64,000 nucleotides of DNA from positions 3,388,501 to 3,452,500 of the forward strand of contig NZ_FMHZ01000002.1 in assembly GCF_900090315.1 (NCBI RefSeq), given 5' to 3'. Source of the stretch: Micromonospora citrea (GTDB lineage Bacteria; Actinomycetota; Actinomycetes; Mycobacteriales; Micromonosporaceae). The position numbers were made by a program, and so were the translations under genes. This document shows, piece by piece, positions 1,975-24,701 of the stretch. Numbering within the stretch: position 1 is the first letter of the stretch; each line of letters begins with the position of its first letter. Below the pieces are notes generated by a model that worked only from the letters and a program-made list of their open reading frames with translations, was not told the origin of the DNA and did not search any database.

Positions 1975-3831
1975 TCAGAAGGCCTCCTCCGGGAGGTCCA
2001 TGATGTCCAGGTCGGTGCCCTCGATGATCCGCCGGTCGGCGCCGATGCGGGGCAGCACCTCGCGGGCGAAGAACCGGGCGGCGGCCACCTTGCCGGTGTA
2101 GAACGCCTTGTCGGCCGCGGAGACCTCGCCGGCCAGGGCCTTGAGGGCCACGTCGGCCTGCTTCTGGAGCAGCCAGGCCACGACCAGGTCGCCGATCGCC
2201 AGCAGGAACCGGCGGCTGCTCAGGCCGACCTTGTAGAGCGCCCGAGTGTCGCCGCCCTGCGCCTCGCCCAGCCAGCCGGTCATCACGCCGAGGATGTTCT
2301 GGATCTCGGCGAGCGCCTTGCCGAGCGCCTGCCGCTCCTCCTTGAGCTGGCCGTTGCCGCCCTCGGTGGCGATGAACTCCTGGATCTCGGCGGCGACCAC
2401 CATCAGGGCCTTGCCGTTGTCCCGGACGATCTTCCGGAAGATCAGGTCGAGGCTCTGGATCGCGGTGGTGCCCTCGTACAGGGTGTCGATCTTGGCGTCC
2501 CGGACGTACTGCTCGAGCGGGTAGTCCTGCAGGAAGCCGGAGCCGCCGAAGGTCTGCAGCGACTCGTGGCCGAGCAGCTCGTACGCCCGCTCCGAGCCGA
2601 CGCCCTTGACCAGCGGGAGGAGCAGGTCGTTGACCCGCTTGGCGAGCTTGGTGGCCTTCTCGTCGCCCGCCGCCTCGGCGATGGCGACCTTGTCCTGCCA
2701 GGTGGCGGTGTAGCAGACCAGGGCGCGCAGGCCCTCGGCGTACGACTTCTGCAGCATCAGCGAGCGGCGCACGTCCGGGTGGTGGGTGATCGTGACGCGC
2801 GGCGCGGTCTTGTCCGCCATCTGGGTCAGGTCGGCGCCCTGCACCCGGCTCTTGGCGTACTCGAGGGCGTTCAGGTAGCCGGTCGAGAGGGTGGCGATGG
2901 CCTTGGTGCCGACCATCATCCGGGCGCTCTCGATGATCATGAACATCTGCCGGATGCCCTCGTGCTTCTCGCCCAGCAGCCAGCCCTTGGCCGGTACGCC
3001 GTGCTCGCCGAAGGTCAGCTCGCAGGTGTTGGAGACCTTCAGGCCCATCTTGTGCTCGACGTTGGTGGCGAAGACGCCGTTGCGCTCGCCCAGCTCGCCG
3101 GTGTTCTCGTCGAAGTGGTACTTCGGCACCACGAAGAGGGACAGGCCCTTGGTGCCCGGCCCGCCGACACCCTCGACGCCGACCGGGCGGGCCAGCACGT
3201 AGTGGATGATGTTGTCGGTCAGGTCGTGCTCGGCGGACGTGATGAAGCGCTTCACGCCCTCGATGTGCCACGAGCCGTCGGGCTGCGGGATGGCGCGGGC
3301 CCGCCCGGCGCCCACGTCCGAGCCGGCGTCCGGCTCGGTGAGCACCATCGTGGAGCCCCACTGCTTGTCGACGAAGAGCTTCGCCCACTTCTTCTGCTGC
3401 TCGGTGCCCTCGACCTGGAGCACGTGCGCGAAGGACGGGCCGGAGGCGTACATCCAGATGGCGGCGTTGGAACCGACGATCAGCTCGGCGAGGGACCAGA
3501 CCAGCGCCCGGGGCGCGTTGCTGCCCTCCAGCTCGGCCGGGAGCTCCAGCCGCCAGAACTCGGAGTTCATGTACGCGCGGTAGGACTTCTTGAACGACTC
3601 CGGCAGCGGCGCGGTGTGCGTGGCCGGGTCGAAGACCGGCGGGTTGCGGTCGCTGTCCGTGTAGCTGGCGGCCAGATCCTCGCGGGCGAGGCGGTCGACC
3701 TCGGCGAGGATGTCGCGCGCGGTGTCGACGTCCAGGTCCGTGTACGGCGCCTGGCTGAACGCCTGGTCCGCCCCGAAGACCTCGAAGAGGTTGAACTCGA
3801 GGTCCCGAAGGTTGCTCTTGTAGTGGGTCAT
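1975..3831 (-). CDS. Acyl-CoA dehydrogenase, FadE5-like
   Basis: The 618-residue protein is a flavin-dependent acyl-CoA dehydrogenase that oxidises acyl-CoA to the trans-2-enoyl form in beta-oxidation. The N terminus ([20 protein letters not shown]) closely resembles mycobacterial FadE5, as do the overall length of over 600 residues and the extra C-terminal region. The FAD/substrate-binding stretch [12 protein letters not shown] lies near residue 180, and the typical C-terminal segment [21 protein letters not shown] near 420. An in-frame extension upstream exists, but the conserved start and the two operator-like palindromes just before it favour the ATG at 3831. The gene appears monocistronic with its own terminator. 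Electrons probably go to ETF and then to a membrane acceptor such as the Fe-S protein at 34685-36904. Confidence 0.9.
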
Positions 3832-7226: not shown

Positions 7227-8100
7227 GGCGCAGCTCCGGCAGCAGGCGGGTCGCCACGTCCACCAGGACGGACTCGTCGCCGGCGTACCAGCTGCTGGCC
7301 CGGGGCCAGTGCGTCACCACGTCGGTGAAGCCGAGGGCGGCCGCCCGGCCGACCTGGTCGGCGAAGAACTGGGCGCTGCGCAGCGAGAAGGCCGGCGCCG
7401 AGTCCAGCGAGAGGTAGCGGTCGAGGGTGCCCGGGTCGCGGCCGGCGGCGGCGAGCGTCTTGTCCATCCGGGCGGACAGCTCGGCCACCCCGTCCCACCA
7501 GCTCTCCAGGTCGTCGCCGCCGGGCCCGGTGGTGACCCAGCCCTGGCCGAACCGCACGACCAGCCGCATGGACCGGGGCCCGTTGGCGGCCATCACGAAC
7601 GGCACCCGGGGCGTCTGGACGCAGCCCGGGTTGTTCCGCGCGTCCACCGCCGCGAACCAGTCGCCCCGCCAGGTCGTGCCGTCCTCGCGCAGGATCAGGT
7701 CGAGCAGTTCGGTGAACTCGGCGTAGCGGTCCACCCGCTGGCGCGGCGGCAGCGTCTCCCCGCCGAGCACGGCCGCGTCGAAGCCGATGCCGCCCGCGCC
7801 GAGGCCGAGCAGCAGCCGCCCGTCGGAGACGTCGTCGAGCGCGGTGACCTGCCGGGCGAACGCCGCCGGGTGGCGGAAGTTGGGCGAGGCGACCAGCGTC
7901 CCGAGGCGGATGCGGGAGGTCACCGTCGCGGCGGCGGTCAGCGTGGTCACCGAGTCGAACCACGGCCCGTCGACCAGGTCGCGCCAGCCCAGGTGGTCGT
8001 ACGTCCAGGCGTGGTCGAAGCCCCACTCCTCCGCCTGCCGCCACCGGCGACGCGAGTCTGACCAGCGCTGGTCGGGGAGGATCACGATGCCAATCCGCAT
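7219..8100 (-). CDS. LLM-class flavin-dependent oxidoreductase
   Basis: The 293-residue protein is a luciferase-like TIM-barrel oxidoreductase that in actinobacteria usually uses F420 or FMN. The N terminus MRIGIVILPDQRW, the segment FDHAWTYDHLGWRDL with the conserved acid/His pattern, RIRLGTLVASPNFRHPAAFARQ and LLLGLGAGG are standard family motifs. I use the ATG at 8100; a longer in-frame start at 8151 adds residues without similarity. The substrate cannot be told from sequence. The gene is divergent from the PadR regulator about 100 bp away. Confidence 0.85.
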   Translation of the reverse strand: MRIGIVILPDQRWSDSRRRWRQAEEWGFDHAWTYDHLGWRDLVDGPWFDSVTTLTAAATVTSRIRLGTLVASPNFRHPAAFARQVTALDDVSDGRLLLGLGAGGIGFDAAVLGGETLPPRQRVDRYAEFTELLDLILREDGTTWRGDWFAAVDARNNPGCVQTPRVPFVMAANGPRSMRLVVRFGQGWVTTGPGGDDLESWWDGVAELSARMDKTLAAAGRDPGTLDRYLSLDSAPAFSLRSAQFFADQVGRAAALGFTDVVTHWPRASSWYAGDESVLVDVATRLLPELRRT

Positions 8101-8198
8101 GATCGCCAGCCTAGCGGCCAGCACCGGCCCCGACGCCGACCCACGCGACACCCCTTGCCATGCATCGATGATCTGAATATCTTGACACGGTGGCCGCG

Positions 8199-8519
8199 AT
8201 GCGCGAACCGACGTTCCTGATCCTCACCGCGCTCGCCGGCGGTCCCCGGCACGGTTACGGCATCGTCCAGGACGTCACCGCCCTCTCCGCGCAGCGCGTC
8301 TCGCTCCTGCCGGGCACCCTCTACGCCGCCCTGGACCGGCTGCACGCGCAGGGGCTCGTCGCGCCCGACCGGGAGGAGACCGTCGACGGCCGGCTGCGCC
8401 GCTACTACCGCCTCACCCCCGACGGCGTCCGCGCCCTGGACGCCGAGACCGCCCGGCTGCGACAGCTCGCCAGCGCCGCCGAGACGCGGCTGCGCGCCCT
8501 GCGCCCCGGGCTCGCCTGA
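8199..8519 (+). CDS. PadR-family transcriptional regulator
   Basis: The 106-residue protein is a small PadR winged-helix regulator. The core FLILTALAGGPRHGYGIVQDV, the recognition region LLPGTLYAALDRLHAQGLV and the wing GRLRRYYRLTPDG match the family closely. A GTG at 8190 in frame would add three residues. PadR proteins of this short class normally repress a neighbouring membrane-protein operon together with their own gene. The AT-rich stretch at 8166-8186 immediately upstream is the likely promoter/operator. The downstream membrane protein, 62 bp away, is the expected partner. Confidence 0.88.
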   Translation: MREPTFLILTALAGGPRHGYGIVQDVTALSAQRVSLLPGTLYAALDRLHAQGLVAPDREETVDGRLRRYYRLTPDGVRALDAETARLRQLASAAETRLRALRPGLA

Positions 8520-13377: not shown

Positions 13378-16300
13378 TCAGTGTCGCCGTGCGGCGGCCT
13401 CTCCGCTTCCGAACCGGTAACCGCGGATGATGGTGTGCTCTGCGGCATTGCCCCTGCCGTCGCTCAGTTTGACGCGTAGCGAGGCGAAGCCGGCCCCTCC
13501 CGGATTGACGATCATGGCAGTGCGCTTTCCGCCCGTCGACAACACCGGCACGGTGCGCCACGTACGGCCGTCGTCGAATGAGACGGCGACGGTGACGCGT
13601 TCGACGTTGCCCGCGTCGGAGCCCGGTTGTGCCCCGACGACGACGGGGACCGCGACTGCGCCGGACGGCGCGCGGTTGTGCTCGTCGAGCCGGGGATTGA
13701 ACGTGGCCGAGAGGAGCGGCAGCCGTACGGGTACGTCGCCGGCCACGCGACCGGACCGGAACGTCCATGCCGCGTCGATCCTCGTGGACAGGTTGTCCGC
13801 GCCACGCTGGCTCCGGACCTCCAGCCGGTACGCGGCCTCCGCCTCCGGCACCTGGAATACCGTCTTGCCCCGAGGCGCGTCGGCCTCGCCGATCCTCACG
13901 CCGTCGCGGAACAGGGCGATCCGGATGTCCGCCGTGTCGTCCCAGCCGCTTCGGCCGTCGCCGTCGCTGTAGAGGGCGGGGGCCACCGTGACGGTGTCAC
14001 CCAGCCGGGTGACAAACTCGTCCGGAACGCCGTGCCGGGGCTGACCGAACGCGGGACCGAACACGCCCCGGTTCCATTCCTCGACATACGTCCGACCCGG
14101 CTCGTAGTGCAGCGGGAGCGACTGACTTCTTCCGGTGACGACCGGAAAGCCTTCGGCGTCGTGCGCCTGCTCGTGGTGGTCTCCGATCCATCGCACGCCC
14201 TCGCCGGTGTAGTACTCGGTGTTGGTGAAGGGCAGGTCGAACGGGATGTTGAACGCTAAGCCGCCGGCGCCCGGCCGCGTAGCGGAGACCGGGAACACCG
14301 TCTTGTTCCCCCGCGTCACCGCGCTCTGCCGGGCATAGCTGGAACGGACCGTCGCGAGGTCGCGTTCGGTGACTCGTCGTTCGAGTCCGTTGGCCATGCG
14401 GCCCGGGACGTACCAGGCCCCGCGATAGACGTGGGGACTGTTGAAGCTCGAGCCGTCGGGCCCGGGCGTGGCCCACATGGCCTGGATGCTGGTTTCGAAC
14501 CCGTCGACGACCTGGTCCGGGCCCAACTGCCCGGCGAAGACACCGCCGACCTGAGCGCCGAATACGCCGCTGCCGACGATCCCGACCCCGGTTCTGAATT
14601 CGGCGGCGACCGCCATGAACTGGCCGACGGCATCAGCTCGCGGCACGGTCAGCGACACCGGCCCGCCGCGCCGCGCATCCACCATGACCGTCCGGTCTCC
14701 CGACAGCTCCAGTCGCGGATGAGCCAGCAGGGTCGTCGTTGACGCGGCGGGATCGCCACCCGACACGTCGTCGACGGTGCTGGTGATGACGTATGACGCC
14801 TTGGGCAGCCGCAGGGTCACGGACCCGTCGGCGCCGTAGACCGACGCTTCGTCGGACGTGTCCGTTCGCCAGATCGTGGTCGAGTAGCTGTCGGCGGCCT
14901 GCCCGTTCCGGTTCGTGTGCACGAGTGTGAGGTCGTAGCTTTCCGGCTCGCGCTCCAGCCCGATCGGGACCGTGATCACGGTGTCGCCCTGCTCGGCGAC
15001 GAGCTGCCCGCCGTAGCGCCCGTCGAGGTTGTTGGCACGAACGTCGGCGGTGACGGTGACGTTCGCGCTGCCGCCGGCCGCCACGGTGACACTCGTCGCC
15101 GACGCCGAGAACATTCCCGCTGGCGCCGGATTGCCGTCCGGCGCGACGGCCTTCACCTTCAGCGACAGGGTGACGGCCGCCGATCCGTGGTTGTGGAGGC
15201 TGATCGTCTCGGTGACGGGGGTGGCGTCGTGATGGGGCCAGGCCTGCCGGCCGAAGTTGACGCTTGGCGGGTCGACGGTCACCGTGGTGTCGAGTGCCCG
15301 CCCGATGTCGAGGCGACCCGCGCCCTGGGCGAACACCGACAGCGCCGGGTTCGGCCTCGCCGAGCCCATCAGCGCAGCCTTCAGTCGGGCGGGCGGCCAG
15401 GCCGGGTGACGTTGTGCGAGGATCGCCGCCGCCCCCGCCACGTGCGGCGTCGACATCGAGGTGCCGCTCATCGCCACGTAGGGCTGGGTCGCTCCGCCGC
15501 CGCTGCGAGCAGCGGTGATGTCCACCCCCGGAGCGGTGATGTCGGGCTTGACGGCGGCGTCCCCGGCCCGAGGCCCGCGGTTGGAGAACTCGGCGAGGCC
15601 GTCGGCCTTGTTCACGGCGCCCACCGCCAGAGCGGCGTCCGCGCTGGCCGGGCTGTTGACCGACGCGTCGGCGCCGTCGTTGCCCGCCGCCGCGACGAAC
15701 AGGGTGCCGTACTGAGCCGTGAGCCTCTCGACGGCCTCCTCGACCGGGTCGAGGCCAGGCGCGTCACTCCCGCCGAGACTCATGTTGACCACATCGGCGC
15801 CCTGCTCGGCAGCCCACTGCATACCCGCCAGGATCCACGACTCCGAGCAGCCGAACTCCACACAGACCTTGCCGTTGAGCAGCCGCGCTCCCGGGGCCAC
15901 GCCGCGGTACCGCCCCCCGGAGGCCGCACCGGTGCCGGCGATCGTCGACGCCACGTGGGTGCCGTGTCCGGCGTGGTCCCGGTCGTCCTCGAACCCGTCC
16001 GTAAAGTTCGCGCTGGCGGCGACCCGACCCGAGAGGTCGGGATGAGCCACGTCCACGCCGGTGTCCAACACCGCCACGGTGACGCCCGAACCGTCGTAGC
16101 CGGCCTGCCACGCCGCCGGCGCGCCCACCTGCGGAACGCTCTCAGCCAGCAGTGGCTTGCGCACACCGTCGAGCCACACCTTCGAGACGCCCGGAACGAG
16201 GGCCCGCTTGCCGGCCCGCGCCTGGGTGATTTCGGCCCACAGGTCGCCGTTGCGGGCCGACCGCACCGCGAAACCGCGCGCCCCGGGCAGTTCCCGCGCC

Positions 16301-19493: not shown

Positions 19494-20054
19494 CAATCGG
19501 AACCTTTGACCAGAGCCCGCAGGTCTACTGCGATGAGGCCGTGGTGGGGTTGCGGCGCGTGTACCCGGGCAGGCCCCGGCCTGCCGGCAATAGCCGGCGC
19601 GAGGGGGTCGCAGAGGCTCCGGGGCCAAGGGCGGCCCGCAGGGCCGTCGCGAAGCGATGCGAAGCACCCTTGCTCGCCGAGACGCTTGCAGACGAAACAG
19701 CTTGCCGGGTCACTGCAACGCCGTGCCATCCCGATGCTGCCGCCGACCCGCCCTCCTGGGGAGCGGGCCGCCGCCCGGCCCGCCACGTCAGGCGGACCTT
19801 GACATAGGTTCGGACGCTGGCGGGTCGGGCGGTGGTCTGCTCGGCTTGCCCGGGTCGATGGCAGGCGGGATGGCCTACCGCAACCACCCACGGACCCGGC
19901 GGCTGCCGACGATCTTCGTCCATCCTGGAGCCGTTGCGCCCCCGCCGGAGGCGCTCTAAACCGCAACCCCGCGACCGTCGTCATCTCGCCGACGTGGCCG
20001 GCGTGCGCTCCCCTACGCCGCGCGGGCTTCTGGCCGCGCGGCCCGGCCTGCTGC
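19494..20054. other. Gene-poor stretch of the island
   Basis: No convincing gene is visible on either strand between the unknown protein and the Tn7-like element. Open frames are Arg/Pro/Gly-rich shadows. The short palindrome-like GGCCCGCAGGGCCGTCGC near 19632 could be a remnant of a replication or transfer region, but this is only a guess. Confidence 0.5.
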
Positions 20055-20059
20055 CGGCC
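20055..20059. repeat. Target-site duplication, left copy
   Basis: CGGCC immediately precedes the TGTCCCGTCCG end of the transposon and equals the five bases immediately after the other end (24087-24091). Five-bp duplications are the rule for Tn7-family transposition. Confidence 0.8.
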
Positions 20060-20070
20060 TGTCCCGTCCG
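20060..20070 (+). repeat. Terminal inverted repeat, tnsA-side end
   Basis: TGTCCCGTCCG is the exact reverse complement of 24076-24086. After six poorly matching positions the two ends agree again at TGGCAC (left 20079-20084). Confidence 0.8.
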
Positions 20071-20077
20071 CGTTGAG

Positions 20078-20135
20078 TTGGCACCGTCCGGTATGACTTG
20101 GCACGAGGTTGGCACTGTCCGGGTTGAGGTGGCAC
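20078..20135 (+). promoter_or_regulatory. Cluster of four TnsB-site-like repeats
   Basis: Cores TTGGCAC at 20078, 20098 and 20109 and GTGGCAC at 20129 share one orientation, three of them followed within two bases by GTCCGG. Spacing is 20, 11 and 20 bp. Dense same-direction repeats at the tnsA end resemble the Tn7 right end. Binding is inferred. Confidence 0.65.
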
Positions 20136-20149
20136 GTCCGGTACGGTGC
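20117..20149 (+). repeat. 33-bp direct repeat, copy 1
   Basis: These 33 bp, which include the fourth TnsB-like site, are identical to 20919-20951. The two copies bracket the methyltransferase gene. Confidence 0.9.
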
Positions 20150-20256
20150 TGTCCGGTCTCAGCGAGGTTAGCGGGTTCTCGGCGAGTTGACAGGCTTCCC
20201 GATGAGTGTGCGTGTACTTGGTCTCGACCGGCAGTCAGCTGTGTGCCGATCGGGCA

Positions 20257-20871
20257 CTACGGCGCGGCGACTGTTGCGGCAATGGCCGCGTACTTGCGGT
20301 CCGGGCGGTCCGGGGACTGCTGCTGCAAGCGCTGAAGTTCGGTGAAACCAGCCTTTGCCAGGCGGGCAGAGAATGTGTCTACGGGCCAGCGGTATGCCGT
20401 GTGGACCTTGTGGTCGAACGCGGCCACATCGTCGTCGCTGTCGAAGAAGCCGATCACCAGGTTCCCGGAAGGAGGCAGCATCCGGCGGAACTCGGCGAGT
20501 ACCGCATCCAGCTCCGATGGCGGTAGGTGGATGGTCGAGTACCAGGAGAGGATGCCGGCCACCGAGTGGTCGGGAAGGTCCAGGTCCGTCATTGATCCGA
20601 GCTGGAACGCCGGCCCGGGAAAGTGGGTCCGGGCGTAGCCGATGAACTCAGGTACCAAGTCGACGCCGGTCACGTTGGCGCCGAGCGAATGCAGGTAGGC
20701 GCTCCAATGCCCGGGGCCGCAACCGAGATCGAGCACGGCGCCGTCCAAGCCGACGAGGTGGTCTCGGACAAGGGCCCTGTCATCCACGTGGGCCTGCCAG
20801 TCACCATCGAACAGGGCGATGTACTGCTCGGACATGTGCGAGTAGGCGTCGCGGACCGGCTGGTTGCTCAC
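20257..20871 (-). CDS. Class I SAM-dependent methyltransferase (transposon cargo)
   Basis: The 204-residue protein has the Rossmann-type SAM-binding motif I VLDLGCGPGHWSAYLHSLG near residues 46-64, motif II acidic end VTGVDLVPEFI and the post-motif segment LDLPDHSVAGILSWYSTIHLPP, all typical of class I methyltransferases. No substrate-specific motif is recognisable. GTG at 20871 is used. The gene lies inside the Tn7-like element, in the opposite direction to tnsA, and is flanked by perfect 33-bp repeats. This placement marks it as cargo. Known cargo of this kind includes rRNA or antibiotic methyltransferases, but the type cannot be told here. Confidence 0.8.
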   Translation of the reverse strand: MSNQPVRDAYSHMSEQYIALFDGDWQAHVDDRALVRDHLVGLDGAVLDLGCGPGHWSAYLHSLGANVTGVDLVPEFIGYARTHFPGPAFQLGSMTDLDLPDHSVAGILSWYSTIHLPPSELDAVLAEFRRMLPPSGNLVIGFFDSDDDVAAFDHKVHTAYRWPVDTFSARLAKAGFTELQRLQQQSPDRPDRKYAAIAATVAAP

Positions 20872-20918
20872 GGCGCCACTCTAAAGTCTGCCCGCGTTCC
20901 ACCCCGAACCCAGTACGC

Positions 20919-20951
20919 GTCCGGGTTGAGGTGGCACGTCCGGTACGGTGC
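20919..20951 (+). repeat. 33-bp direct repeat, copy 2
   Basis: This stretch is identical to 20117-20149. It contains another GTGGCAC core (20931-20937), and the likely GTG start of tnsA lies within it. Confidence 0.9.
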
Positions 20952-21707
20952 CGGGTGCTGCGCGCGGTGCCGGGCCTGGGTGGGCCGCTGACGGCTGAGT
21001 TCGAGGTCGGCTACGTCGGCGCCGAGGGATCGGAGGTCCGCACCTCCTTGATCGACTCGGCGGGGGTGCCGTTCGAGCTGGTCAAGCCGGTACGCGGCTT
21101 CCCGTCGTACAAGCGGCAGCGCAACTTCCCGGGCTTGTGGTGGTCGTCGACGACCGGCGCTCACGTCGGGTACGAGTCGTGGCTGGAGCGCGATCACCTG
21201 ATGCTGCTCGACTTCGCCCCGGCGGTGGCCGGGATCGCGTCGCAGCCGTTCTGGCTGTTCTGGAACGACGAGGCTTCCGGCCGGCGCCGTTCGCACGCGC
21301 CGGACTACTTCGCCCGGCTGGCCGACGGGCGGGGCCTGGTGGTGGACTGCCGACCAGTCGACCGGATCAAACCGCGTGACGCCGCGGCGTTCGCCGTGAC
21401 TGGCCGGGCGTGTGAGCTGGTCGGATGGGAGTATCGGCTGGTCGGCGCGCCGGAGCTGGTGATGGTGCGCAATGTGCGCTGGCTGGCCGGTTACCGGCAT
21501 CCGCGGTACCGGCTGCCGGCGGTGGGCGCGGCGTTGCGGGAGGTGTTCGCCGAGCCCGCGCCGTTGATGGACGGTGCTGGCGCGGCGGGTGAGCCGATCG
21601 CGGTCCTGCCGGTGTTGTTCCACCTGCTGTGGTGCGGTGAGCTGGCCTGTGACCTCGGGGTACGGCTGCACGAGGCGACCATCGTGACCACGGCCGGGGC
21701 CTGCTGA
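20931..21707 (+). CDS. TnsA-like transposon endonuclease
   Basis: The protein of up to 258 residues matches TnsA-like heteromeric transposase endonuclease subunits, which cut the non-transferred strand so that the element moves by cut-and-paste. The N-terminal nuclease core shows GYESWLERDHLMLLDF near residue 80 (catalytic Glu), ASQPFWLFW, then HAPDYFARL near 125 (catalytic Asp) and LVVDCRP; the lysine of the PD-(D/E)XK pattern is not obvious. The start is uncertain: GTG 20931, which overlaps a TnsB-like site, GTG 20955 and GTG 20967 are all in frame. The stop TGA overlaps the ATG of the transposase gene (TGATG), indicating translational coupling. Confidence 0.8.
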   Translation: MARPVRCRVLRAVPGLGGPLTAEFEVGYVGAEGSEVRTSLIDSAGVPFELVKPVRGFPSYKRQRNFPGLWWSSTTGAHVGYESWLERDHLMLLDFAPAVAGIASQPFWLFWNDEASGRRRSHAPDYFARLADGRGLVVDCRPVDRIKPRDAAAFAVTGRACELVGWEYRLVGAPELVMVRNVRWLAGYRHPRYRLPAVGAALREVFAEPAPLMDGAGAAGEPIAVLPVLFHLLWCGELACDLGVRLHEATIVTTAGAC

Positions 21708-23632
21708 TGGGCGCGGGCAAGTTGCCGGTGCTGCGTGTCGGGGAGTGGGTGCGTTTCGACGGCGACGAGCACCAGGTGGTGGCGCTGGCCGGCACGTCGG
21801 TGCGGCTGCGCTCGCGGGGTGGGGTTGCGCAGGTGGTGCTGCTGGCGTTCCTGCTCGCCGCCGCGGACTTCGAGCTGCTCGACGAGCAGCAGGCGGTGCC
21901 GGCGGTGGAACCGCTGGGGCTGCTGGAGACCCTGCCGCACGAGGTGCTCGAGCGGGCCCGGCGCTGGGAGCGGCACCTCGTCGAGGTGGTCACCGGCCGG
22001 GCACCGGAAGCGCCGGAGGGCGCCGGGCCGCGGCCGGGTTACGACCCAGCGGCGAGCACGCTGAAGGACCGCGACGCGGCCAAGGCCGTCGAGCTGAGCG
22101 CCGCCGGGCAGCCGACCTCGGCGCGGACGGTGACGCGGATGCGGCTGCGCTACGCCGAGCAGGGCCTGTGAGGGCTGGTCGACCAGCGATACACCCGCGG
22201 CAGCGACCCGGTCGGCCGGGCCGACGAGCGGCTGGTCACGGCGATCCGCGCCGAACTGGACGCGCAGACGCACGCCTCGACGGGCACCCGCGGGCGCCTG
22301 ATGCGACGGGTGCGCACCGCGCTGGACGCCGAGCACGGGCCCGGGGTGGTGCCGATTCCGGGTCGCAGCGCGTTCTACGAGCTGGTCGGCGTGCTGGCCG
22401 GCGGGCGGCACTCGTTCGGCGCGGCGACCACGCGCCGGTCCCTGGCCAACCGGCCGGTTGCGCCGTTCACCCCGACGTTCGCCACCCGGCCCGGTGAGCT
22501 GGTGCAGATCGACTCCACGCCGCTGGACGTGATGGTGCTGCTGGACTCCGGCGTCCCCGGCCGCCCCGAGCTGACGATGGTCGTCGACGTGGCCACCCGC
22601 ACCATCGCTGCGGCGGTGCTGCGCCCGGCCGGCACCAAGGCCGTCGACGCCGCGTTGCTGCTGGCCCGCACGCTGGTCCCTGAGCCGATGCGGCCCGGCT
22701 GGTCGGCCGCGCTGCGCATGTCCGCCTCCCGGCTGCCGCACACGCGGCTGCTCGACATCGACGCCCGGCTGGAGACCGCCGCGGCCAAGCCGGTGATCGT
22801 CCCGGAGACGATCGTCATCGACCACGGCCGGGTGTTCGTCTCCGAGGTGTTCACCCGCGCTTGCGACCGGCTGGGCATCTCTAGCCAGCCGGCCCGCAAG
22901 GGCACCCCGACCGACAAGCCGCTGGTCGAGCGGCAGTTCTCCTCTATCGCCAGCCTGTTCTGCCAGCACGTCGCCGGCTACACCGGCGGCAACGTCACCC
23001 GCCGCGGCGACCGGATCACCGACGAGCCGCTCTGGAGCCTGCCCGAGCTGCAAGACCTGCTCGACGAGTGGATCGTCGCCGGGTGGCAGCACCGGCCCCA
23101 TGACGGGCTCCGCGACCCGCACGCGCCGCGCCGGGCGTTCAGCCCGAACGACGCCTACGCCGCGATGGTCGCCGTGTCTGGCTACCTGCCCCTGACGCTG
23201 TCGGGGACCGACTACCTGGAGCTGCTGCCGGTGCACTGGCGCCACGTCAACGAGTACGGCATCACCATCGACCACCGCACCTACGACGACGACGCCCTGC
23301 CCCACGGCGAACGCTCCACCGTCGCTGAGCAGGGCGGGCGCTGGGAAGTGCACTACGACCCCTACGACCTGTCCCACGTCTATGTCCGCACCCCGGCCGG
23401 CTGGATCACCGCGGCCTGGACGCACCTGCCGATGGTCAGCGCGCCGTTCGCCGACTTCACCTGGCGCCACGCCCGCCGGATGGCCGTTCCTCGCCGCGTT
23501 CTACCCCGAGATCGTCAACCTTGCGCGGCTGTTCTGCTCGCCTACCTGGCGGGCCGTTGCCCGCCGGGCGCTGACCTCCGCGGAGCACCGGCTCACCATC
23601 ACCGCCAAGATCAGCCGGCAGATCGGACCTGA
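21707..23632 (+). pseudogene. TnsB/Mu-type DDE transposase, stop-interrupted
   Basis: The frame starts at ATG 21707 and is broken by TGA at 22169-22171, then continues in the same frame for 486 more codons. The part after the stop holds the RNase H-like integrase core: first catalytic Asp in LVQIDSTPLD, second in IVIDHGRVF and Glu in KPLVERQFS, with 35 residues between the second Asp and the Glu (DD35E). A C-terminal Mu-transposase beta-barrel region follows (YEDLSHVYV-like: YDLSHVYVRTPAGW). The N-terminal part is a DNA-binding region (TSARTVTRMRLRYAEQGL). The TGA is probably a single change from TGG. The last 40 codons of the frame after about 23480 lose similarity. Confidence 0.8.
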
Positions 23633-23993
23633 GCCCGTCCCCCATGACTGGCCCGTCACCCAGGGGTGGACCGGGTACGAAACAGACCGTTGGCTGCGGG
23701 CGATGGCCGGCCTGCCGGATATCGTCGTGCCCAACCGCACGTTCCCGCAGACCCGCCGGGTCACCTTCGACGGCGTCCCGGTCAACCACGCCACCTCCGA
23801 CGAGACCCTCGCCAAGAAAGCCAACAAGGAGTTCAACAAGCACCGCCATGTTCCGAGCTGGGCGCTACCGAACTACGCCGACCGGCCCACCAACCACGAC
23901 CTGCCGCTCGACTACCAACCCGAGCCCGAACACCACCCACGCCTCAGCCTGTCGCAGCTGCTGGACGCACTCATCGCCGACAGTGCCAAGTAG
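23481..23993 (+). pseudogene. Remnant of a further transposon gene
   Basis: In the frame after that of tnsB, about 170 residues look genuinely coding from WPFLAAFYPEIVNLARLF onward. They continue through EHRLTITAKISRQIG, GWTGYETDRWL and RRVTFDGVPVNH to LSLSQLLDALIADSAK. No start codon or ribosome site precedes it, so it seems to be the C-terminal part of another protein fused out of frame to tnsB by a deletion, or a frameshift. I do not recognise the family. TnsC and TniQ would be expected at this place; neither Walker motifs nor TniQ zinc motifs are visible. Confidence 0.5.
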
Positions 23994-24068
23994 ATCCGGA
24001 CGACTAACCTGATCTTGTCCGCGCGGACCTGGCACAACCGCAGCTCAGGCACCCGACACCAGTGCCAC
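23983..24068 (-). promoter_or_regulatory. TnsB-site-like repeats of the distal end
   Basis: Inverted cores GTGCCAA (23983-23989) and GTGCCAC (24062-24068) read TTGGCACTGTC and GTGGCAC on the minus strand. They are about 79 bp apart. The first overlaps the stop codon region of the preceding remnant. Confidence 0.55.
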
Positions 24069-24075
24069 TTTCCGC

Positions 24076-24086
24076 CGGACGGGACA
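24076..24086 (-). repeat. Terminal inverted repeat, distal end
   Basis: CGGACGGGACA is the exact reverse complement of the first 11 bp of the element. Confidence 0.8.
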
Positions 24087-24091
24087 CGGCC
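24087..24091. repeat. Target-site duplication, right copy
   Basis: CGGCC directly follows the transposon end and equals 20055-20059. Confidence 0.8.
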
Positions 24092-24120
24092 CACCACACC
24101 CCGGTCAACGATCCTGTTGC

Positions 24121-24576
24121 TCAGACGGCAGCCTCACATTCGGACCACCCAAGACCGATGCCGGCATCCGTACCGTCACCGTTCCCGATGCGATCCGCCG
24201 CGACATTCGCGCAAACCTGGACGACTTTGTCGACGAGGACCAGGGCGCGCTCGTCTTCACCGGCGCGAAGGGTGCCGTCCTGCGCCGCTCCAACTTCCAG
24301 AGCGCCTGTAAGTGGCGCGAGTCGGTGGCGGCGGCCGGCCTGCCTGGCTTCCACTTCCACGACCTACGGCACACAGGCAACACCTTGGCCTCTCGGACCG
24401 GTGCCAGCCTGGCCGACCTGATGGCCCGGATGGGTCACGCCTCGACTCGGGCCGCAATGATCTACCAGCACACCGCCAAGGAGCGTGACGAGCACGTCGC
24501 TGACGGCCTCAGCGAGCAGATCAAGAAGGGCCGTGATCGGGCACGTAGCGGGCACGGCCAGCGCAGGAAGCGGTAG
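24121..24576 (+). pseudogene. Tyrosine recombinase (integrase) C-terminal fragment
   Basis: About 150 residues of a phage-type tyrosine recombinase remain. SLTFGPPKTDAGIRTVTVP, GALVFTGAKGAVLRRSNF, then FHFHDLRHTGNTLASRTG (second catalytic Arg), MARMGHAS (His) and AMIYQH (nucleophilic Tyr) are all present. The N-terminal two thirds, with the arm- and core-binding domains and the first catalytic Arg, are missing, and no start codon precedes the fragment. It ends 52 bp before the CCA end of tRNA-Gly, the usual place for the integrase of a tRNA-targeting element. The upstream break lies close to the transposon end but about 30 bp outside it. Confidence 0.85.
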
Positions 24577-24627: not shown

Positions 24628-24701
24628 TGGAGCGGGTGACGGGAATCGAACCCGCACTGTCAGCTTGGGAAGCTGATGTTCTGCCATTGAACTACACCCG
24701 C
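24628..24701 (-). tRNA. tRNA-Gly (CCC anticodon)
   Basis: The 74-nt gene reads GCGGGTG at the 5' end, pairing with CACCCGC at the 3' end, followed by the discriminator base and an encoded CCA. The anticodon stem is TCAGC/GCTGA and the loop TTCCCAA gives anticodon CCC. The T arm is GCGGG-TTCGATT-CCCGT. Its 3' half is the integration site of the island on the left. Confidence 0.95.

Follow-up and report, generated by a model that had tools for sequence, protein, structure and literature searches.

A probably non-autonomous deletion derivative of a Tn7-like transposon in Micromonospora citrea and its gene-carrying miniature relatives

The DNA analysed here, a stretch of 64,000 nucleotides of the Micromonospora citrea genome (the window), contains a compact Tn7-like transposon with tnsA, a broken tnsB, the end of a tniQ gene and one cargo gene (Table 1). 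The element is bounded by the 11-bp sequence TGTCCCGTCCG, which occurs exactly twice in the window, in inverted orientation, and by CGGCC directly outside either end; a reading made from the sequence alone had proposed both the perfect terminal inverted repeats and the matching outer flanks, and both stand. In a scan of all 64 kb for TGT...ACA end pairs spaced 1.5-15 kb apart and bordered by an exact 5-bp duplication, this is the only pair whose 11 nt mismatch at one position at most. The ends are confirmed by a 99% identical copy at a different site, whose homology starts at 20060 and stops at 24086/24087. TGGCAC repeats are present at both ends and point inward as had been described, except for the site at 24030, which points outward; a further site lies at 20932 on the plus strand. 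By analogy with Tn7-like ends, these arrays are putative binding sites of TnsB. The element is single-copy in its own 7.2-Mb genome, where five more matches to it are short and weak (37-73 bp, 74-89% identity).

The TnsA-like nuclease of the sequence-only reading is a clear member of NCBIfam family NF033179 (319 bits, cut-off 110); the start of its gene at 20955 was chosen from relatives, while the listed open frame begins at 20931. In the proposed profile comparison of TnsA and TnsB, Pfam PF08722 on TnsA (19.1 vs 26.5 bits) and the rve domain in TnsB (25.8 bits) fall below their cut-offs, whereas NF033179 and the Mu C-terminal domain of TnsB (PF09299, 28.4 bits, cut-off 21.7) lie above theirs. 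Sequence searches of solved structures returned the TnsB of Tn6677 and PseTnsAB as best chains for TnsB, and only weak, unrelated matches and no TnsA chain for TnsA. TnsB residues D114, D217 and E253 are invariant in 7/7 aligned sequences, with 35 residues separating the last two, so that the DD35E type assigned earlier holds; the in-frame stop and the lost tail of the gene are additions to that first reading. The codon at the TGA (22169-22171) is a sense codon in both 99% copies described below and in a Paractinoplanes relative. Chance inverted repeats around unrelated IS481-like genes would be in keeping with the best NCBIfam match of the transposase piece, which is IS481 but below cut-off (46.9 vs 224 bits); against this, the ends and duplication are unique in the window and the ends are shared by the copy at another site, and the probability left to chance is negligible. 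Altogether, the TnsA and TnsB matches, the ends and the 5-bp duplication support an actinobacterial element of the Tn7 family.

The cargo gene, also seen in the first reading, lies on the minus strand and encodes a class I S-adenosylmethionine (SAM)-dependent methyltransferase. It is bracketed by a 33-bp direct repeat that is itself left-end sequence; in a Paractinoplanes element the corresponding sites adjoin tnsA with no such insert, and the outer end was not found there. The cargo is present in both other 99% copies, and its uptake therefore probably preceded their spread. A gene 82-85% identical to it at the DNA level occurs in four genomes of the genus, and no tnsA, tnsB, tnsC or tniQ stands beside these homologues in the stretches covered (16 kb for one, 3.6 kb for three). 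At another locus (L188, genome G250; L and G numbers are our handles for loci and genomes), oriented positions 7488-8285 match the cargo segment and the inner 33-bp repeat at 98.9% identity, and the match stops at window position 20964, short of the body of tnsA. By eye, TGTCCGGTCTCAGCG, directly after the outer repeat (20150-20190), resembles an end as found in another subfamily of Tn7-like elements; that a second such end stands at 20150 is unproven, since the G250 relative matches only from 20167.

Table 1. Features of the transposon and its target in the window
Feature	Position	Strand	Evidence
Target repeat, left part (dispersed genus repeat cut by the transposon)	19725..20059	+	
Left 5-bp target duplication, CGGCC	20055..20059	.	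flank comparison
Left (tnsA-side) terminal inverted repeat, TGTCCCGTCCG	20060..20070	+	
Left-end array of four TGGCAC sites (20079, 20099, 20110, 20130), proposed TnsB binding sites	20071..20149	+	
33-bp perfect direct repeat bracketing the cargo, outer copy	20117..20149	+	
Cargo: class I SAM-dependent methyltransferase, 204 aa	20257..20871	-	Pfam Methyltransf_25, 69.5 bits
33-bp repeat, inner copy, containing TGGCAC site 20932	20919..20951	+	
tnsA, endonuclease subunit	20955..21707	+	NF033179, 319 bits; alignment
tnsB, 5' part, ending in in-frame TGA at 22169-22171	21707..22171	+	
tnsB, catalytic part and Mu C-terminal domain; last part of protein missing	22172..23486	+	
Internal deletion junction, ~2.03 kb of 99% copy missing	23486..23487	.	
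tniQ remnant, 3' part only	23487..23993	+	98.8% identical to L186 tniQ
Right-end TGGCAC sites: 23983 and 24062 (minus strand), 24030 (plus strand)	23983..24067	-	
Right terminal inverted repeat, TGTCCCGTCCG	24076..24086	-	
Right 5-bp target duplication, CGGCC	24087..24091	.	flank comparison
Target repeat, continuation on the right, shortened in this copy	24092..24133	+	

Copies with about 99% identity to the window element (L186 and L187) are present in two further species of the genus. L186, 6,056 bp long, occupies a different site in one of them, where it is bordered by a 5-bp duplication of its own (CCTTA) and by flanks unlike those of the window element. Its two matching parts are 99.4% and 99.2% identical to the window element and are separated only by additional DNA at the junction at 23486, where the comparison skips 2,027 bp (L186 9967-11993). 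Compared with Paractinoplanes deccanensis NBRC 13994, of the family Micromonosporaceae (L071, on the same contig as L144), about 2,021 bp are skipped, with a 1-bp overlap. These boundaries come from BLAST pieces; the multiple alignment is wrong past the junction and was not used there. The skipped sequence encodes the tail of TnsB, TnsC and the front of TniQ; in L186, TnsC matches TniB (61.5 bits, cut-off 22.4) and the whole TniQ matches its profile (32.3 bits, cut-off 27). The remnant in the window also matches the Paractinoplanes TniQ (70% over 50 aa), whose gene in L071 (oriented 14369-15000) appears by eye to be broken after about codon 265 by an IS3-type insertion. L187 matches the window at 99.1% up to 23486 and extends beyond it into tnsC before diverging; the 18 kb examined at this locus showed no right end.

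The search for complete copies suggested at the outset thus led to two close relatives, one of which, L186, has tnsC and tniQ. The window copy has no TnsC, as the sequence-only reading had said, and it retains TniQ as a 3' remnant, which that reading had overlooked. Because TnsC is absent here and present in L186, sequence comparison classes the window copy as a deletion derivative and not as a complete Tn7-like member. With intact ends and an incomplete set of transposition genes, it is very probably a non-autonomous derivative of a cut-and-paste Tn7-like transposon. Its open tnsA and the conserved catalytic core of TnsB could also be taken for a working minimal transposon that needs TnsA and TnsB alone; yet its tnsB has a stop and no tail, and the tnsC and tniQ lost here are present in the 6,056-bp L186, which contradicts the idea and makes it extremely improbable. 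A 141-nt query across the deletion junction (junction at 71, five candidates scored per genome) was compared with 160 genomes of the genus and is matched over its full length only in the genome that holds the window; strong matches elsewhere are one-sided and either stop at 60-83, coming from the left, or begin at 71 (G292). An assembly or sequencing artefact would fit a junction seen in one genome only, but the genome is in 2 contigs and the junction is clean, with an overlap of a single base pair, so this explanation for the missing 2.03 kb is very unlikely.

The first reading had taken the element to be either decayed or reliant on helpers elsewhere in the genome. Relative to L186, this copy has decayed, by one deletion of about 2.03 kb and the tnsB stop. 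A helper elsewhere in its own genome was considered and rejected: the TniQ profile has no match there, and the only match to the TnsA family is the window copy; the helper idea finds its support in the mini-elements described below. As the genome holds no other TnsA-family or TniQ-profile match, the window copy should be disabled and silent unless a complete relative supplies the proteins. Several points weigh against this account. None of the three closest copies is complete, because tnsB is broken in all of them (split between two frames in L186 and L187) and the right part of L187 is lost. The TniB profile matches long frames in the window's own genome; these matches say little, because the profile also matches 14/14 control genomes. 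Movement itself is deduced from sequence, and no transposition was observed.

The target of the insertion is a dispersed repeat of the genus. The flanks joined without the element (19781-20059 and 24092-24321) match 153/160 genomes, with three candidates scored per genome, so that copy numbers are not counts, and many of the matches cross the junction (position 279) and reach about 321. The repeat has a sharp left edge at 19725 and measures about 510-540 nt in other species, and it ends early, at 24133, in this copy; 22 copies were aligned through the insertion junction. The check on flank continuity thus turned out in favour of the first reading: an uninterrupted repeat is an empty site, which supports insertion at the 20059/24087 flanks. 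The left end of the repeat forms a 150-nt inverted repeat. A known RNA was considered for the repeat and dismissed, with no Rfam match near the gathering score, and compensatory changes in the inverted repeat numbered 0 in 1,378 cells. Further to the right, a tyrosine integrase fragment and a tRNA-Gly gene adjoin (24325-24576 and 24628-24701); the fragment is probably what remains of an element that integrated earlier.

A common 42-bp sequence starting AATGGCCATATCTTGCTCC is situated 20 nt from L186 and from L187, in the same orientation (L186 6470-6537, L187 6340-6405); its core is also found in L189, far from the element. A likeness of the window flank to this sequence found no support, 925/1,000 and 798/1,000 shuffles being as good.

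Complete gene sets occur in more distant elements, such as L083 (5,398 bp, duplication GCTGG), with open frames of 327, 686, 350 and 310 aa; the gene order in relatives is tnsA, tnsB, tnsC, tniQ. NF033179 was found in 50/200 genomes of the family, above cut-off in 35. Among 53 tnsA-tnsB loci, the window included, 13 have TGT ends with at most one mismatch in 10 and an exact 5-bp duplication, whereas shifted controls (n=30) averaged 0.77 and reached 3 at most. A looser search (2 mismatches in 10) returned 20/53 loci but scored 1-12 in six shifted controls, and the strict criterion was therefore used. Relatives of the transposase are also found, among the best 12 matches, on plasmids of Nocardia, Mycobacterium, Streptomyces and Rhodococcus.

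Ten elements from ten genomes and three genera (L066, L068, L070, L190, L193, L205, L206, L207, L211 and L212) share a landing site, where the tnsA end faces the start of one gene of about 214-217 aa. The element end lies 36-42 nt, in the same orientation in all ten, from the motif GATTAGAATGTATGTACTAATC upstream of this conserved gene; the motif is exact over the 20 nt scored in seven of them and varies in L066, L068 and L211. The nearest start codon of the gene is 83-89 nt from the element end (98 and 104 for L066 and L068 under other, extrapolated gene starts). Neither Pfam nor NCBIfam gave a match for the gene, whose region was matched in 160/160 genomes of the genus; in L207 the gene occupies 2656-3297 on the minus strand (214 aa). 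A joined-query test for empty shared sites is weak, the upstream side not being conserved, and six sites were read directly instead (G000, G292, G298, G345, G222 and G162). In none of them can an element end be recognised within the 90 nt that precede the motif; a loose test caught a GGGACA in G000, without the rest of an end before it.

In G285 the site is occupied by an element of 7,604 bp that has the full set of four tns genes and the duplication GCATG. Past this element come more ends, of which several are followed by CATG and one is that of the mini-element L191, which suggests that insertion recurred at one spot. The row of Tn7-like ends at L212 and L191 spans G285:C1:3931797-3946057, several of them with CATG at the junction.

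Insertion at the shared site in one orientation is seen in the ten relatives and not in the window copy, whose own genome has the shared site without a recognisable element end. In the stretches examined, the conserved gene is not beside the window element, L186, L187, L189, L194, L203, L204 or L103. L189 scored above 500/500 shuffles against the shared site, yet the conserved gene is not beside it; likeness of the window's landing site to the shared site found no support, with 223/500 shuffles as good. We infer that TniQ selects the site. Similarity of TniQ was tried as an explanation for the use of the shared site and gives no clear picture: L207 is at the site and its TniQ is closer to that of L186, which is not there.

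The ends also delimit much smaller elements. The end pattern TGTCCSGTCCRSNNNNRNNTGGC has 46 matches in 30 of the 160 genomes (2 in the backwards control), of which 26 pair up as 13 facing pairs. Three pairs enclose 4,027 bp (the window element), 6,056 bp and 7,104 bp, and the other ten are mini-elements of 394, 397, 1,052, 1,052, 1,138, 1,225, 1,300, 1,577, 1,719 and 1,723 bp. Exact 5-bp duplications flank 9/13 pairs, the others being L191, L204, L205 and L206. The eight minis of 1,052-1,723 bp hold a single long frame each, the cargo, and no more than fragments of tnsA or tnsB; in the other two, of about 395 bp, no frame exceeds 76 aa. The cargo is a methyltransferase in L189, L193, L194 and L206, a CehA/McbA-type metallohydrolase in L103, L190 and L191, and a DUF998 protein in L205. 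These assignments rest on profile scans for L189, L206, L205 and L103 and on 97-99% DNA identity to scanned relatives for L193, L194, L190 and L191, with the length of the longest frame as additional basis for L194 and L191. Pieces of tnsA (21-100 aa) remain in L103, L190, L191, L205 and L206, of which L190 and L191 also retain a 109-aa piece of tnsB; no tnsA or tnsB remnants were found in L189, L193, L194, L203 and L204. The only trace of tnsC or tniQ in the minis is in L204, where 29 aa weakly resemble tnsC (E 0.006).

L193 and L194, the 1,052-bp minis of two species, are 99.6% identical and lie at different sites with different duplications; L189, about 97.7% identical, is at a third. Such comparisons show that minis with cargo moved after loss of the machinery, and the simplest reading is that they would have been helped in trans. 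NF033179 was found in 4/10 mini-bearing genomes; in the other six, no helper of this TnsA family is found at present. The 7,104-bp L207 shares its two end parts, cargo included, with L206 at 99.2% and 96.7% identity, and for this reason L206 looks like a deletion derivative of the L207 type.

The window copy might itself belong to such a helper-travelling class and have arrived already deleted. Both of its ends are intact, and minis with the same kind of ends have moved as units to three sites (L193, L194 and L189). No second deleted copy is known, however, since the deletion junction was matched in full in one of the 160 genomes, and the tnsB stop fits simple decay equally well; we regard prior deletion as doubtful.

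In the broader interpretation, with enzyme roles assigned by homology, TnsA and TnsB would excise complete relatives at their TGTCC...GGACA ends, TnsC would link TnsA/TnsB to the target, TniQ would pick the target, and insertion would create the 5-bp duplication. The window copy inserted into the dispersed repeat and, before or after that event, lost about 2.03 kb in one deletion that took the tail of TnsB, tnsC and most of tniQ; tnsB gained a stop codon, while both ends, the site arrays and the methyltransferase gene were kept. A complete relative in the same cell could in principle still move it. Beyond the window, we lean slightly towards a two-tier system in Micromonosporaceae, in which complete elements home to one defined position, always the same way round, at the GATTAGAATGTATGTACTAATC palindrome upstream of the conserved gene and move single-gene cassettes in trans, each made of two Tn7-like ends and one passenger, often a methyltransferase. 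These cassettes could stack into islands at the site and spread between species, and the window element would represent a halfway stage on the way from a complete element to such a cassette.

Tn7 of E. coli has the TnsA and TnsB pair, TGT...ACA ends and a 5-bp duplication, and inserts downstream of glmS. The elements described here resemble it in TnsA/TnsB, ends and duplication, and the relatives also in inserting in one orientation with the tnsA end facing a conserved gene. They differ in that the relatives' site lies upstream of a gene without known function rather than downstream of glmS, and in that the window copy is off the shared site and without tnsC and most of tniQ. NF033179, of which the window TnsA is a clear member, names one protein and not the ends, target or mini forms. 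Engineered mini-Tn7 vectors, bacterial miniature inverted-repeat transposable elements (MITEs) and Tn3-derived inverted-repeat miniature elements (TIMEs) consist of two ends with or without cargo, lack a transposase and are moved by helpers. Related literature includes PMC10969869, PMC4133298 and PMC4587759. The minis likewise have two ends and no transposase; they occur naturally, their ends are Tn7-like, and each of those measuring 1.05-1.72 kb includes a gene.

The 2021 mBio survey of Tn7-like transposons is reportedly by Benler et al. Passages of this survey describe a clade 2 dominated by Actinobacteria, none of whose members is experimentally characterised, and give median lengths of 14-29 kb (PMC8649781). 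According to the same passages, clade 2 is similar in its TnsB-type transposase, usually with tnsC and tniQ/tnsD, its TnsB-site arrays at both ends, its cargo and its actinobacterial hosts; the 14-29 kb medians differ from the 4.0-8.6 kb here and the 0.4-1.7 kb of the minis, and mini-elements are not mentioned in the passages on clade 2 (PMC8649781). The window element probably belongs to clade 2. No word beginning with 'actino' occurs in the main text of a 2023 survey of target selectors (PMC10293859), and the best-ranked matches of searches in the open-licence literature include no report of non-autonomous or miniature Tn7-like elements, also in these bacteria, which is weak evidence of novelty.

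On its own, the window copy is an unremarkable, decayed example of an element type already known. When its relatives are considered as well, the evidence points to naturally occurring mini-Tn7-like cassettes with one gene each and to a candidate site of homing; the cassettes would be natural counterparts of the engineered mini-Tn7 vectors, probably in a Tn7-like clade that is experimentally uncharacterised, and a candidate landing site and complete elements are available for testing. If this is true, it shows how light cassettes of a single gene arise from a Tn7-like family, and it may offer a site-specific integration tool for actinomycetes.

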